64,000 nt of DNA from Collinsella aerofaciens (GTDB lineage Bacteria > Actinomycetota > Coriobacteriia > Coriobacteriales > Coriobacteriaceae): assembly GCF_015670795.1 (NCBI RefSeq), contig NZ_JADPCJ010000001.1, positions 62,001-126,000 on the forward strand. The letters are read 5' to 3'. Positions 4,458 to 36,082 of the stretch are shown here, piece by piece. The notes under the pieces are model-generated. The model was given only the letters and a program-made list of their open reading frames with translations. It was not told where the DNA came from and made no database searches. A program made the position numbers and the translations under genes. Every line of letters begins with the position of its first letter. Position 1 is the first letter of the stretch.

Positions 4458-5234
4458 ATGCCCCGATGCGCCCGCGCCGTTTCGCTCACCGGCTATTACC
4501 ACGTCTTTGACCGTGGCAACTCCAAACAGATTATTTTTGAAGATGACTCTGACCGATATCGTTTCTTATCGGACATCTCGGACAGGTTTGCGCGCCATGA
4601 AGTGGCGGTTTTGGCTTGGTGCCTTATGGACAACCACTTTCATTTGATGGTTGATGATCCGTTCGACAATCTTTCAAAGGCGATGCAGTGCGCATTGACG
4701 GCATATGCTAAGTATTTCAATGGGAAAACGGGGAGAACGGGGCATTTGTTTGACAATCGCTATTCGCGGGTCGCGGTCGAGTCGGACACACAGGCGGTGC
4801 AGCTACTCGATTATATCCATCTCAATCCTGTGAAGGGTGCAATTAACTCACTCGAAGCATACCGCTGGTCAAGCTACAAGGCATATCAGCTGGGCTATGA
4901 TCCCTTTGACATCTGTGATGCGGCTCCTATGCTCGATATTGTCGGAGGCTCCCGTTGCTATTGCGAGCATCTCGAGAAAGTTGCCGGGCGCATCTGGTCA
5001 GTAGAGGTTCTTCCACGCCGGCGGATCCCCGATGAGGAGGCCCTTTCCGTTGCGCACGAAGTCCTGCCGAGCATAGATCCTGCGCTGCTCAAGGCCCTGC
5101 CGCGACTCGAGCGTGATGCGTGTCTGCTGAGGCTCAGGCGGGCACATCTCACGGTCAAGCAAATTGCCCGTATCACCGGTATCGGCGCTACAAGCGTGAC
5201 CAAGGCCACTGCAGGCTGGAAGGAGGCTGCGTGA
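4458..5234 (+). CDS. REP-associated tyrosine transposase (RAYT, Y1/IS200-like superfamily)
   Basis: A 258-residue HUH-type transposase. NHFHLM supplies the metal-binding His pair, followed by RTGHLFDNRY and YIHLNPVKGA, which are typical of the TnpA_REP/Y1_Tnp family. The C-terminal ~60 residues look like a helix-turn-helix. The start chosen is the ATG at 4458 with AAGGAGAG just upstream; an in-frame TTG at 4443 lies on that ribosome-binding site. The gene sits between 49-bp inverted repeats with internal hairpins, the palindromic substrates such enzymes recognise. These enzymes are usually domesticated and single-copy, moving REP sequences rather than themselves. No frameshift is visible. Confidence 0.9.
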   Translation: MPRCARAVSLTGYYHVFDRGNSKQIIFEDDSDRYRFLSDISDRFARHEVAVLAWCLMDNHFHLMVDDPFDNLSKAMQCALTAYAKYFNGKTGRTGHLFDNRYSRVAVESDTQAVQLLDYIHLNPVKGAINSLEAYRWSSYKAYQLGYDPFDICDAAPMLDIVGGSRCYCEHLEKVAGRIWSVEVLPRRRIPDEEALSVAHEVLPSIDPALLKALPRLERDACLLRLRRAHLTVKQIARITGIGATSVTKATAGWKEAA

Positions 5235-30754: not shown

Positions 30755-30786
30755 AGAGCGTCCTGCGCAGCGGGGCGCTCTTTTTG
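30755..30786 (+). terminator. Terminator between rpsO and pnp
   Basis: AGAGCG (30755-30760) pairs with CGCTCT (30776-30781), with extra G-C pairs inside, and is followed by T5. Confidence 0.8.
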
Positions 30787-30852
30787 TGTAAGGGCGCGAA
30801 CAATCACGCTCTGAAGCGTGGCGGGGGCAGGGGGCCCGCGTCACATGAGAAG

Positions 30853-30875
30853 CCCGCAGACAAGGGGTCTGCGGG
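30853..30875 (+). promoter_or_regulatory. Leader hairpin directly upstream of pnp
   Basis: A perfect 9-bp stem (CCCGCAGAC with GTCTGCGGG, 5-nt loop) ends 3-4 nt before the AAGGAG of pnp. A second 6-bp hairpin (CACGCT/AGCGTG) lies at 30805-30820. The position resembles the pnp leader stems of other bacteria that mediate autoregulation. Confidence 0.5.
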
Positions 30876-30888
30876 GTTAAGGAGAACA

Positions 30889-33135
30889 ATGACACTCGTA
30901 TCCAAGACCTTTGAGCTGTACGGCAAGACCTACACCTTTGAGTCGGGCGAGCTTGCCAAGCAGGCCACCGGCGCCTGCCTGGTCAAGCAGGGCGACACCA
31001 CGATGCTCGACACCGTGGTCGTCTCCAAGGAGCGCAAGAACTACGACTTCTTCCCGCTGACCGTCGACTTCAACGAGAAGATGTACGCAGCCGGCCGCAT
31101 CCCGGGTGGCTACCTCAAGCGTGAGGGCCGTCCCAGCGAGAAGGCCACGCTCACGGCCCGCATGATCGATCGCCCGATTCGCCCGAGCTTCCCGGATGGC
31201 TTCCGCAACGAGGTGCACATCGTCGCCACCTCGCTCGTCGCCGACCAGGTCAACCCCTTCGATGTCATCAACGTCATGGGTGCATCCCTGGCCATGACGC
31301 TTGGCGGCGTGCCCTTCGAGGGCCCGCTTGCCTGCGTGCGCATCGGCCGTAACGTGGAGACAGGCGAGTTTATCGTCAACCCCACCTACGAGGAGCGCGA
31401 GAACTCCGATCTGGACCTGGAGCTGGGCGGCTCTGCCGACTTTATTTCGATGGTCGAGGCCGGAGCCGAGGAGATCTCCGAGGACGACATGCTTGCCGCC
31501 ATGAAGTTTGGCCAGGAGGCCCTTGCTGCTTTCTGCCAGGCTCAGGACGAGTTCGTCGCCGAGTGGGAGCAGGTCAACGGCCCCATCGTCAAGAAGGAGT
31601 ACCCGCTCGACCAGCCCGTCGAGGAGGTCCAGGAGCGCATCTTCGCCCACTACGACGAGATGGCTGCCGCCCTTCGCGACGCCGACAAGCTCTCCCGTAT
31701 CGGTAAGGTCGAGGCTCTGAAGGAGTCCATCCGCGCCGAGTTCACCGAGGAGGAGCAGGCCGCTTGGGAGCGCGAGATCCCCGTGGCGCTCAAGAAGCTC
31801 GAGAAGAAGGCCATGCGCACCATGGTCGTCGAGACCGGTGAGCGCGTCGACGGCCGTGCCGCCGATGAGATCCGTCCCATCATGGTGAAGGACAACTACC
31901 TGCCGCTCGTTCACGGCTCCGGTTTGTTCCAGCGTGGCCAGACCCAGGTGCTCTCGGTTCTTTCGCTCGGCATGCTCAACGAGGGTCAGCGTCTGGATAC
32001 CATCGAGCCCACCGAGGGCAAGCGCTACATGCACCACTATAACTTCCCGCCGTTCTGCACCGGCGAGACTGGCCGCATGGGCAGCCCCAAGCGCCGCGAG
32101 ATCGGCCACGGCAACCTTGCTGAGCGCGCTCTGCTTCCGGTGCTCCCCGACGAGAACGAGTTCCCCTACGCCATCCGCGTCGTCTCCGAGGTCATGGAGT
32201 CCAACGGCTCCTCTTCGATGGCTTCGACCTGCGGTTCTACGCTCGCCCTTATGGACGGCGGCGTGCCCATTAAGCGCCCGGTCTCCGGTATCGCCATGGG
32301 CCTGATCCAGGAGGAGGGCAAGACCGTGGTCCTGTCCGACATCCAGGGTCTCGAGGACTTCCTGGGCGACATGGACTTTAAGGTCACCGGCACCACCGAG
32401 GGCATCACCGCTCTGCAGATGGACAACAAGGCCACCGGCCTCACCTTTGACATCCTGGCCCGCGCTCTGCAGCAGGCCAAGGAGGGTCGCGCCTTCATCC
32501 TGCAGAAGATGCTCGATGTGATCCCCGAGCCGCGCCACACCACGCGCAGCACCGCTCCGCGCATCGTTTCCATCCAGGTTCCGACCGACAAAATCCGCGA
32601 CGTCATCGGTTCCGGCGGTAAGGTCATCCGCGGTATCCAGGACGAGACCGGCGCCTCGGTCGACATCCAGGAGGACGGCACCGTCTTTGTTGGCGGCACC
32701 GGCGAGTCCGTCGACCAGGCCGTCGAGCGTATCAAGCTCATCATCAAGGTTCCCGAGCCGGGCGAGGAGTACACCGGTCGTGTGGTCTCCATCCAGCCCT
32801 TCGGCGCCTTCGTCAACCTGCTGCCCGGTAAGGACGGCCTGCTGCACATCTCCCGCGTCGCCAAGGGCCGCGTGGGGAAGGTCGAGGACGTCCTCAACGT
32901 GGGCGACGAGGTCAAGGTCGTCGTCATCGAGGTCGACGATCGCGGCAAGATCTCGCTCGATCGTCTTGATAAGCCCGAGGCCCCGGCTCGTGCCGAGGGT
33001 GCCTCCGAGGGCGACGGCGAGCACTTCCAGCGCCGTGAGCGTCCGCGTCGCGAGCGCTCTGAGCGCAGCGACCGTCCGCGCCGTCCCGGCGACAACGGAG
33101 GCCGAAAGCCCCGCCGTCACCACGACGCCGAGTAA
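30889..33135 (+). CDS. pnp: Polyribonucleotide nucleotidyltransferase (PNPase)
   Basis: A 748-residue phosphorolytic 3'-5' exoribonuclease. Two RNase PH domains flank a helical domain, followed by KH (VIGSGGKVIRGIQDETGA, about residues 570-620) and S1 (about 630-700) domains. The last ~45 residues are a very basic Arg-rich tail (RRERPRRERSERSDRPRR) that could bind RNA. AAGGAG precedes the ATG at 30889. It has its own structured leader and a strong terminator. With RNase J and RNase Y also in the window, the RNA decay set is well represented. Confidence 0.96.
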   Translation: MTLVSKTFELYGKTYTFESGELAKQATGACLVKQGDTTMLDTVVVSKERKNYDFFPLTVDFNEKMYAAGRIPGGYLKREGRPSEKATLTARMIDRPIRPSFPDGFRNEVHIVATSLVADQVNPFDVINVMGASLAMTLGGVPFEGPLACVRIGRNVETGEFIVNPTYEERENSDLDLELGGSADFISMVEAGAEEISEDDMLAAMKFGQEALAAFCQAQDEFVAEWEQVNGPIVKKEYPLDQPVEEVQERIFAHYDEMAAALRDADKLSRIGKVEALKESIRAEFTEEEQAAWEREIPVALKKLEKKAMRTMVVETGERVDGRAADEIRPIMVKDNYLPLVHGSGLFQRGQTQVLSVLSLGMLNEGQRLDTIEPTEGKRYMHHYNFPPFCTGETGRMGSPKRREIGHGNLAERALLPVLPDENEFPYAIRVVSEVMESNGSSSMASTCGSTLALMDGGVPIKRPVSGIAMGLIQEEGKTVVLSDIQGLEDFLGDMDFKVTGTTEGITALQMDNKATGLTFDILARALQQAKEGRAFILQKMLDVIPEPRHTTRSTAPRIVSIQVPTDKIRDVIGSGGKVIRGIQDETGASVDIQEDGTVFVGGTGESVDQAVERIKLIIKVPEPGEEYTGRVVSIQPFGAFVNLLPGKDGLLHISRVAKGRVGKVEDVLNVGDEVKVVVIEVDDRGKISLDRLDKPEAPARAEGASEGDGEHFQRRERPRRERSERSDRPRRPGDNGGRKPRRHHDAE

Positions 33136-33159
33136 CAGCTAAACATAAGCAGCTCAACA

Positions 33160-33189
33160 AGGGCGACTCCGGACAGGGGTCGCCCTTTT
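33160..33189 (+). terminator. Terminator of pnp
   Basis: AGGGCGAC (33160-33167) pairs with GTCGCCCT (33179-33186) and is followed by TTTT. The 3' half of this terminator is also the outer end of the palindromic repeat at 33182-33330. Confidence 0.85.
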
Positions 33190-33330
33190 GCTCGCGCCCG
33201 GGAGGGCCGCATATGAAGTTTCCTGCTCTACAGTCCTGCGTAAGACGGAAAGCACATTAAGTGCTTTCCTTTGCGTGCGGAACTCGCGATAAACTTCATA
33301 TGCGTCCCTCCCGGGCGCAAGCAAAAGGGC
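33182..33330 (+). repeat. Palindromic repeat, family A, copy 1
   Basis: A 149-bp structure. Outer 40-nt arms (33182-33221 and 33291-33330) are inverted copies with two mismatches. The interior holds an asymmetric core and an inner hairpin (GGAAAGCAC/GTGCTTTCC, 33247-33269). The core matches the copy at 34091-34223 in reverse orientation, while the outermost ~30 nt of the arms are unrelated to that copy. Confidence 0.85.
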
Positions 33331-33415
33331 TGGTTAACGCTGTTGGTAGCTTGCTGGTCTTCTGTTCTTAGTTGATATACTTTTTCGCATCTAACGCTTA
33401 GCCTAGGGGGTTGGC

Positions 33416-34036
33416 ATGACAAATAAGGTTGAATGGGACCGCATGATTGCCGGGGAGCTCTATAGCCCCTATCGGGTTAACGACCATTCGTTTTGTAGGG
33501 TGCATGCGGCTCAGAAGTTGTTTAATGAGTCGGAGTATTGGGCTGATTCGAGCGCCTTTGAGGAACTAAAGAAGTGTTTTCGCGTTGCTCCGGACGATAT
33601 GGTCTTAACGGCTCCCGTTTATTTTGATCACGGCGACAGGGTTTCGTTTGGTAACCATTTCTATGCGAATACCGGTTTGACGATTCTGGACGAAAATTAC
33701 GTGACCTTTGGCGACAACGTCTTTCTAGGACCCCATGTGAGTATATTTACTGCTGGGCATCCAATTGACGCCGATGTGCGCAATCTAGACCTCGAGTATG
33801 CTAAGCCTGTCGTAATCGGCAACAACGTCTGGATGGGCGGCGGGGTGATTATCAATCCGGGCGTATCAATCGGAGACGATGTGGTCATAGCCTCAGGTTC
33901 AGTTGTTGTTAAAGACGTTCCAAGCCACGTCATCATCGGCGGCAATCCAGCTCATATCATTCGAGAGATTACCGACAACGATCGCAAGCTCTGGCAAGGC
34001 CAGCTGAATGCCTACAACGAGGCAATTGGATCATAG
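33416..34036 (+). CDS. Maltose/galactoside-type O-acetyltransferase
   Basis: A 206-residue left-handed beta-helix acetyltransferase of the LacA/Maa/NodL family. It has an N-terminal Maa-type helix region (YSPYRVNDHSFCRVHAAQKL), hexapeptide repeats and the AGHP motif with the catalytic His (TAGHPIDADVR). It uses acetyl-CoA to acetylate a sugar or sugar-like acceptor that cannot be named from sequence. AGGGGG precedes the ATG. Its base composition is clearly richer in A+T than its neighbours, and it lies between two inverted palindromic repeats, so it was probably acquired as a unit. Confidence 0.88.
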   Translation: MTNKVEWDRMIAGELYSPYRVNDHSFCRVHAAQKLFNESEYWADSSAFEELKKCFRVAPDDMVLTAPVYFDHGDRVSFGNHFYANTGLTILDENYVTFGDNVFLGPHVSIFTAGHPIDADVRNLDLEYAKPVVIGNNVWMGGGVIINPGVSIGDDVVIASGSVVVKDVPSHVIIGGNPAHIIREITDNDRKLWQGQLNAYNEAIGS

Positions 34037-34411
34037 CCTCGGCATTCCCGCAGATAAAACCTACTAAAACAAACCTATCCCTTATTGGCAGGTTTCCCGT
34101 GGGGCGGGCACTGATGAAGTTTATCGCGAGTTCCGCACGAACAGGAGGCCACTTAATGTGGCCTCCGTCGTGAGCAGGACTGTAGAGCAGGAAACTTCAT
34201 CAGTGCCCGCCCCACGGGAAACCGGCGGGATGGACCAGTTCAGATGGGGCTTTGATGCATGGGTGGTCTGTTGGTGGGCAAATGGGTATCATACTGTGGT
34301 TACTGCGTCGACTCTGTGATGCATGTTTGTACGTTCCCGGCGGTCGGTTTGCCAGAAGCGCCCCGTCGGTTGTTCCAGACCCGTTTCGAAGAAAGGAAAC
34401 CACACTAACCT
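34037..34411. other. Intergenic region between the acetyltransferase gene and rnjA
   Basis: This 375-bp gap holds the second family A palindromic repeat (34091-34223). The following 190 bp up to rnjA must carry the rnjA promoter, but I see no clear -35/-10 pair, no tRNA and no convincing small ORF. Confidence 0.6.
34091..34223 (-). repeat. Palindromic repeat, family A, copy 2 (inverted)
   Basis: A 133-bp structure with perfect 32-nt inverted arms (34091-34122 and 34192-34223). The inner hairpin is GGAGGCCAC/GTGGCCTCC (34144-34166). Read in reverse complement, the core matches copy 1 over its whole length except for paired changes in the inner stem and differences at 33239-33246. The outer 23 nt are specific to this copy. 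Confidence 0.85.
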
Positions 34412-36082
34412 ATGGCAGCTAAAAAATCATCTCCCTTGAAGATCATTCCGCTCGGCGGCCTTGACGGCATCGGCAAGAACATGACGGTCTTCGAGTGCGG
34501 CGACGACATGGTGCTCGTCGACGCCGGTCTCATGTTCCCGGATGACTCCCAGCCTGGTATCGATCTGGTGCTTCCCGACTACACCTATGTTCTGGAGAAC
34601 GAGGAGAAGCTCCGCGGTATCGTCGTCACCCACGGCCACGAGGACCACACCGGTTCGCTTCCGTACCTGCTGCAGGACCTCAACAATAAGGTGCCCATCT
34701 TCTCGAGCAAGCTGACGCTTGGCTTTATCGAGGGCAAGCTTTCTGAGTTCCGCATCCGCGCACCCAAGTTCCGCGAGGTCAAGGGCGGCAGCCATGTCAA
34801 CCTCGGCGGCATCTCGCTCGACTTCTTCTCGATGACGCACTCCATCCCCGGCGCTCTGGGCGTGTTCATCCGCACAAATCAGGGCACCGTTATGCACACC
34901 GGCGACTTTAAGCTCGACCAGACGCCCATCGATGGCGTCACGCCCGACTATGCCGCTATCAGCCGCTTTGCTAAGCAGGGCATCGACCTACTGCTTTCCG
35001 ACTCCACCAATGCCACGGTTCCCGGCTTTACCAAGTCAGAGGCCGAGGTTGGTCCCAACCTGCTGCACGCCATCAAGAACGCCCCGGGTCGCGTGTTCGT
35101 CGCGTCGTTCTCGAGCCACATCCATCGTTTGCAGCAGATCTGCGATGCCGCCCGCAAGTGCGGCCGTAAGGTCGTTGTGACCGGTCGCTCCATGCTCACT
35201 AACACCCGCGTGGCGCGCGAGCTTGGCTACCTCAACATCGACGACGCCGATATCATCGATGCCTTTGACATTGATAACCTGCCTGACGACAAGATTGTCG
35301 TCATGTGCACCGGTTCGCAGGGCGAGCCGCTGTCGGCCCTGTCCCGCATGGCCAATGGCGAGCACAAGACGCTCTCCATCCACGAGGGCGATACCGTTAT
35401 CCTCTCGGCAACTCCTGTTCCCGGCAATGAGAAAGCCGTCCAGCAGGTCGTCAACAGCCTGGCCAAGCTCGGCTGCGACGTGTGGGATAAGAACCGCGCT
35501 CTCGTTCACGTTTCCGGTCACGGTAGCCAGGAGGAGCTCAAGCTCCTGATGGCCATGGCCAAGCCCACGTACTTTATGCCGGTTCACGGTGAAGCCGTGC
35601 ATCTGCGCGCCCATGCCCAACTGGCCCGCAAGATGGGTCTCAAGGACGATCATATCTTTATCCTCGACAACGGCGACACGCTCGAGATGCGCGGCGGTAT
35701 CGTTAAGCGCGGTACGCCCGTCGAGTCCGGCGTCGTTTACGTCGACGGCCTGCGCATCGGCGATACCGACCCCATCGTCTTGCGTGATCGTCAGAAGCTC
35801 GCCAACGACGGTATGGTTACCGCTGTTGCCATCGTCTCGCTCAAGCACAAGAAGATCGAGGCCATCGAGTTCTCGGGCCGCGGCGTCTCGTTTGCCATCG
35901 ACGACCAGTTCTCCGAGGATGCCTCCGCGTCCATTATGAAGACGATCGAGAAGGGCAAGTTCAGCTTTACGAGCAGCGGTTCCGATGCCATTCGCAAGGC
36001 CGTGCGCGACTCGCTCTCCAACTTTATCTGGAGCCGTACGCGCACTCGTCCGATGATCATCCCGGTCGTCATGGAGGTTTAG
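34412..36082 (+). CDS. rnjA: Ribonuclease J
   Basis: A 556-residue metallo-beta-lactamase/beta-CASP ribonuclease with 5'-3' exonuclease and endonuclease activity in mRNA decay and rRNA maturation. The metal motif THGHEDHTG is near residue 75, with later conserved segments GDFKLDQTP, SDSTNAT and SGHGSQEELKLL. Length matches RNase J1. AAAGGA lies about 15 nt before the ATG, rather far. ftsK starts right after the stop. Confidence 0.95.
   Translation: MAAKKSSPLKIIPLGGLDGIGKNMTVFECGDDMVLVDAGLMFPDDSQPGIDLVLPDYTYVLENEEKLRGIVVTHGHEDHTGSLPYLLQDLNNKVPIFSSKLTLGFIEGKLSEFRIRAPKFREVKGGSHVNLGGISLDFFSMTHSIPGALGVFIRTNQGTVMHTGDFKLDQTPIDGVTPDYAAISRFAKQGIDLLLSDSTNATVPGFTKSEAEVGPNLLHAIKNAPGRVFVASFSSHIHRLQQICDAARKCGRKVVVTGRSMLTNTRVARELGYLNIDDADIIDAFDIDNLPDDKIVVMCTGSQGEPLSALSRMANGEHKTLSIHEGDTVILSATPVPGNEKAVQQVVNSLAKLGCDVWDKNRALVHVSGHGSQEELKLLMAMAKPTYFMPVHGEAVHLRAHAQLARKMGLKDDHIFILDNGDTLEMRGGIVKRGTPVESGVVYVDGLRIGDTDPIVLRDRQKLANDGMVTAVAIVSLKHKKIEAIEFSGRGVSFAIDDQFSEDASASIMKTIEKGKFSFTSSGSDAIRKAVRDSLSNFIWSRTRTRPMIIPVVMEV

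Follow-up and report, generated by a model that had tools for sequence, protein, structure and literature searches.

Our analysis showed that the two palindromes located in the region that separates pnp from an RNase J-like gene of Collinsella aerofaciens belong to a dispersed family of elements, in which the arms change in concert, coding flanks are mirrored, and copies turn over between loci. The family is probably a REP-like foldback element, composed of a conserved asymmetric hairpin core and of arms of host DNA that would be made and re-made by fold-back copying (template switching).

The two copies were found in the window, which is the whole stretch of 64,000 nucleotides that was analysed. 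They are inverted relative to each other, as the first-pass annotation had described, with a spacing of 757 nt; the second copy is slightly longer than first drawn (34088-34226, previously 34091-34223). Each copy consists of a core of 69 nt flanked by arms of 40 nt (copy 1) or 35 nt (copy 2). The features of this region, in window coordinates, are as follows.

30784..33135, plus strand: pnp (open reading frame), upstream of copy 1; we take its product to be polynucleotide phosphorylase from sequence knowledge
33159..33187, plus strand: pnp intrinsic terminator (inverted repeat I5), whose 3′ half overlaps the first arm
33182..33221, plus strand: left arm of copy 1 (inverted repeat I2), locus-specific, starting in the 3′ half of the pnp terminator
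33222..33290, plus strand: conserved asymmetric core of copy 1, defined from the 42-copy alignment and class-wide sequences
33230-33237 and 33277-33284: invariant blocks of the copy 1 core, ACAGTCCT and GCGGAACT
33247..33269, plus strand: covarying inner hairpin of copy 1, GGAAAGCAC-ATTAA-GTGCTTTCC, with arms at 33247-33255 and 33261-33269
33291..33330, plus strand: right arm of copy 1, mirroring the left arm and ending in AGCAAAAGGGC, the mirror of the terminator's GCCCTTTTGCT
33416..34036, plus strand: acetyltransferase-like gene (open reading frame), between copies 1 and 2, in this genome only
34088..34122, minus strand: right arm of copy 2 in core orientation (inverted repeat search)
34123..34191, minus strand: conserved core of copy 2, with an inner hairpin of the GGAGGCCAC/GTGGCCTCC type
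34192..34226, minus strand: left arm of copy 2 in core orientation (inverted repeat I3); relatives carry alternative arm alleles at this locus
34412..36082, plus strand: RNase J-like gene (open reading frame), downstream of copy 2; its product is presumed from sequence knowledge

The arms are near-perfect inverted repeats within each copy (95% complementary in copy 1 and 97% in copy 2), and over 113 nt the two copies are 80% complementary to each other. Their predicted RNA folds had energies of −102 and −101.7 kcal/mol (z = −11.6 and −12.5, respectively), which no shuffled sequence equalled. Two finer points of the first-pass annotation were also borne out: the arm of copy 1 takes in the 3′ half of the pnp terminator, with GCCCTTTTGC at 33182 mirrored by GCAAAAGGGC ending at 33330, and the inner hairpin has changed on both sides, from GGAAAGCAC/GTGCTTTCC in copy 1 to GGAGGCCAC/GTGGCCTCC in copy 2.

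The acetyltransferase-like gene between the copies has a low GC3 and is absent from 10 orthologous intergenic regions, in which about 180 nt are found instead. This suggests that the gene is a recent gain between the paired elements. No relative of it was found in viral contigs. A second repeat, approximately AGATAAAACCGACCAAAATAAACCTGTCCCTTTTTGGCAGG, precedes copies at two loci (34050-34095 of the window and 1400-1450 of L018) and may represent another dispersed family.

A DNA search of this genome gave 24 matches, corresponding to about 20 loci, as several of the matches represent a single palindrome split in two at contig ends (L003/L004, L005/L006, and L007/L017). The contig pairs C43/C27, C34/C24, and C40/C25 of G000 end inside a palindrome, which indicates that short-read assemblies break and undercount the family. 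All of the loci possess the common core and their own arms, whose two sides match almost without indels. Arm length ranges from 20 to 49 bp with a median of 28 bp, and the arms are locus-specific and match local host DNA. The core consists of CTCRRACAGTCCT, a variable inner hairpin, and TGCGGAACTCGC. The flanking blocks, including their unpaired nucleotides, are invariant throughout the class, while the inner hairpin can be reduced to CGCTTCGC, giving a minimal core of 28 nt.

The inner stem had been predicted to covary, and it does so strongly. In an alignment of 42 copies, 98.9% of the cells were paired and 237 cells were double-changed, against 68 in shuffles; the covariation score was reached by none of the 500 shuffles. 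One-sided G-U states were nearly absent from the arms in this alignment. A fixed A:C (G-U on the opposite strand) was observed near the core in several lineages of the genus (L048, L284, L307, and others) and may be a recognition feature. An asymmetry of mismatches seen at first (106 AC vs 52 GU) was traced to such fixed near-core positions in certain lineages and disappeared in the outer arm, whose mismatches have no bias of GU over AC.

Further copies of the core, which the first-pass annotation had anticipated, were found elsewhere in the genome as well as in relatives. Within the genus, the DNA search gave matches in 36 of 45 genomes; a covariance model search raised this to 41 of 45, and found the element in 63 of the 67 genomes and five of the six genera of the family. 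Many genomes of the order gave matches, and single copies were found in other orders of the class. In the phylum-wide sample, the sole genome outside the class with a match was G213, and this match was weak. The exact 28-nt minimal core was present in 33 stretches of GTDB contigs, mostly from Eggerthellaceae, Coriobacteriaceae, and Atopobiaceae, and also in one Bdellovibrionaceae MAG and one Omnitrophota MAG. These two MAGs had 11 and 5 pattern matches, respectively, with none for the reversed control. Most of the Bdellovibrionaceae copies have AT-rich, host-like, locus-specific arms, and one of them (L455) pairs at 28 of 28 positions. Six core-pattern matches in viral contigs lacked arms and were rejected as chance, and no convincing core was found upon searching phages and plasmids. 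A literature search with the core sequence returned nothing, and no published description of the family was found. In Rfam, there was no match above the curated threshold, only a sub-threshold match of a miRNA hairpin at the element. Separately, positions 2662-2695 of L230 gave a match to the L31-Coriobacteria ribosomal leader (RF03128), just over the gathering score.

The outer arms had been said to differ between loci, and their sequence was indeed not conserved from one locus to another. At orthologous loci, too, copies keep their position and differ in their arms. Among the nearest allele pairs of 14 loci, 70 positions had changed on both sides and were still paired, against 45 one-sided changes; the expectation for such paired double changes was 1.9. 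The L021 locus has two alleles of the whole arm, which have their outer flanks in common and are distinguished by one mirrored block together with a mirrored indel of 6 bp; the L010 and L013 loci likewise have alleles of this kind and mirrored indels. In two orthologs of L010 (L058 and L095), an ordinary terminator and another long palindrome, AGGGGCCCTGGCACGGCAATCTGACGTTCAACTTCGGCGGCGCG..., stand in place of the left half of the element, and what remains is the right half of the core with its arm. At the locus of copy 2, arm alleles X and Y alternate among relatives, and two recombinants (L031 and L042) carry one arm of each; L060 is also recombinant. Arm correction is not instantaneous, as shown by the survival of recombinant copies whose arms do not pair (L031, L042, L060, and L117).

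Beyond the arms, strong inverted similarity of the two flanks was found at 8 of 100 independent loci, while 0.15 were expected from shuffled partners. The mirrored source was coding in all six loci inspected, and its inverted copy was non-coding DNA on the other side. In five of them (L020, L327, L351, L222, and L343) the source was the 3′ end of a gene, and in L048 it was the 5′ end of a gene, which we take to be thrB from its peptide. The copying direction was from left to right in all six, which could be the result of selection against the overwriting of coding DNA. These mirrored flanks are direct support for flank DNA being copied into an inverted arm. Of the two readings offered by the first-pass annotation, flank copying is upheld by the mirrored coding flanks, by the two-sided block changes with mirrored indels, and by the host-like arms found around the core in other phyla, and selection for long hairpins alone is weakened.

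The element has a strong bias of position and orientation. A stop codon lies within 35 nt of the left arm at 60 of 124 loci in the core sense and at 13 in the opposite sense (p = 4e-9; loci of other genomes), with a median of 13 nt from stop codon to arm. Divergent gene pairs are rare at the copies (3/99), i.e., divergent promoter regions are avoided. Leader positions form a minority, found at leuS and serA (each in two genera) and lepA. In some cases the position has been kept over deep splits (L062, L081, and the leuS and serA leaders), and in certain relatives the gene concerned ends in an ordinary terminator instead (L065 and L078). These biases would be explained if the element were a functional RNA, a 3′-end or leader hairpin in which ordinary selection and compensatory mutations preserve the long stem, and in which the internal loop is a binding site for a protein or a block to RNA polymerase or exonucleases. 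The conservation of position over deep splits also suits this explanation, as do the class-wide invariance of the unpaired nucleotides and a wobble position near the core that is fixed in one lineage. However, the covariation is Watson-Crick only, one-sided states are nearly absent, and the outer arms lack an excess of GU. Compensation by point mutations is not expected to give mirrored indels, whole-arm swaps, or mirrored coding DNA. The fraction of T in the 10 nt past the right arm was 0.25, and at least five T in 8 nt were found in only 3 of 246 cases, so that the missing U tract excludes a standard intrinsic terminator as the identity of the element. Like such terminators, the element forms a hairpin about 13 nt behind stop codons, but it differs from them in its much longer stem, its conserved internal loops, and its occurrence in both orientations. 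Selection for RNA hairpins alone thus fits poorly and is unlikely as the explanation of the family. A function of the core is compatible with copying of the arms, and therefore this rival mainly concerns what maintains the arms.

Comparison of related species showed that elements are inserted or lost. In a Gordonibacter-like genus, one copy (L403) fills a junction at which the genes of relatives overlap (L371/L372), another lies within a reading frame (L401/L386) that is uninterrupted in L392, and others are nested in older elements (L399/L380 vs L389; L398). This indicates that the core arrives at or leaves loci between close species. The arms of a nested copy could not be derived from the outer element (L399 vs L389), so some copies may arrive with arms. 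The relatives offered no alignable pre-insertion site with one arm native and the other new. At L128 and L151, two candidate empty sites, the element was judged to have been deleted later, as outgroups are filled or flanking bases are missing. Among the compared loci, no target-site duplication was seen and no alignable empty site was close enough. A left-boundary motif, RACCTGYG, noticed by eye at some Eggerthellaceae loci, was abandoned because it stands beside only 9 of 46 copies there and 2 of 200 elsewhere.

Presence/absence polymorphism, nested insertions, and nested arms absent from the outer element are also what a MITE-like non-autonomous transposon would give, with its own arms as terminal inverted repeats and the arm diversity as old subfamily divergence. 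The element is, like MITEs and Correia-type repeats, short, non-coding, and hairpin-forming. But conserved terminal repeats and target duplications are expected of those, whereas here the ends are locus-specific and the centre is conserved, the reverse of a MITE. The arms differ by locus within one genome and track host composition across phyla, and unique coding DNA is mirrored. Genes for Y1_Tnp (PF01797) are also lacking in G016 and G018 despite 12 and 24 copies, and copy number was independent of RAYT genes, so that an association with RAYT was rejected. We therefore consider this explanation improbable. A RAYT-like Y1 transposase gene (282-aa frame, PF01797) is present in the window at about 4458-5232, with repeats of its own (TGGGGACAGACTT...GTGCTTTCAC...) that are unrelated to the element. 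Insertion of the core into the loop of existing hairpins such as terminators, with the old stem as arms, would account for the shared sites of elements and terminators, for nested copies in the loop of older elements, and for the overlap of the first arm with half of a terminator, but it is very improbable given that arms of 20-49 bp are long for terminator stems, that in relatives lacking the element the site is occupied by an unrelated terminator (L065, L078) or intergenic DNA is absent (L371/L372), that blocks in the arms change after insertion, and that the mirroring extends into coding sequence.

Among known systems, the element resembles REP/BIME sequences and RAYT-mobilised REPINs, which are likewise dispersed intergenic palindromes with tens of copies and inverted pairs, mostly behind genes, and which also avoid divergent promoter regions. 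REPs have conserved ends, with GTAG or CGTC as a terminal tag, and stems of 5-13 bp (PMC3733652, PMC3116915, PMC8266576). In the present element, by contrast, the middle is conserved and the stems are locus-specific with a length of 20-49 bp (median 28), far beyond the short stems of REPs. No constant unpaired tetranucleotide was found at the element ends, where the arms differ at every locus. The arms themselves resemble the products of template-switch (quasipalindrome) mutation, in which one arm is copied onto the other, giving perfect stems and mirrored multi-base changes, and which can copy sequence outside the stem (PMC8794818, PMC7202029). Template switching has been shown to create and maintain perfect hairpins (Monttinen and Loytynoja, PMC8794818) and, in E. 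coli, to turn quasipalindromes into perfect ones (PMC7202029). Two of its marks, paired double changes and a flank mirrored beyond the stem, were found here (70 vs 45 changes, with 1.9 expected; 8/100 vs 0.15 loci). The difference is that this mutation is known as a sporadic event at single sites, whereas here it has apparently recurred throughout a dispersed family whose copies share one conserved core.

Fold-back copying could proceed in the following way. The core-bearing strand would become single-stranded during replication or as an insertion intermediate, and the core would fold. Its 3′ side would then pair with its 5′ side, the core serving as a putative fold-back primer, and the polymerase would use the left flank, already synthesised, as the template for a second arm in inverted orientation and then switch back, so that one event could create or enlarge a palindrome. 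Repeated copying would correct mutations and lead to concerted arms, mirrored indels, and covariation of the Watson-Crick type only. The core would be spared from such correction by selection, or by the recognition of a putative mobilising enzyme, keeping its asymmetric loops. Copies would be tolerated mainly just behind stop codons, with a possible role as a 3′-end hairpin. No enzyme or transposition intermediate was found for the element. Flank copying that is tied to the insertion mechanism and replicative template switching on an older palindrome each explain the same data, and core mobility and arm correction may be two separate processes. Tentatively, the family might form a new class of mobile DNA, with a conserved foldback core of 30-70 nt, whose insertion or later replication copies the recipient flank into a second arm and whose core has moved between phyla; we regard this as possible but short of probable.

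The origin and upkeep of long perfect palindromes are usually approached with single reporters. The present family provides hundreds of natural replicates in which both can be followed on bacterial chromosomes. Covariation that looks like that of a structured RNA would here be made largely at the DNA level, which calls for caution in RNA discovery based on covariation. A mobile core would make the element a repeat with a conserved interior and an exterior made by the host, one that duplicates gene ends in inverted form. If the family is truly a new mobile class, each copy would be mostly host DNA, with inverted fragments of the neighbouring genes.
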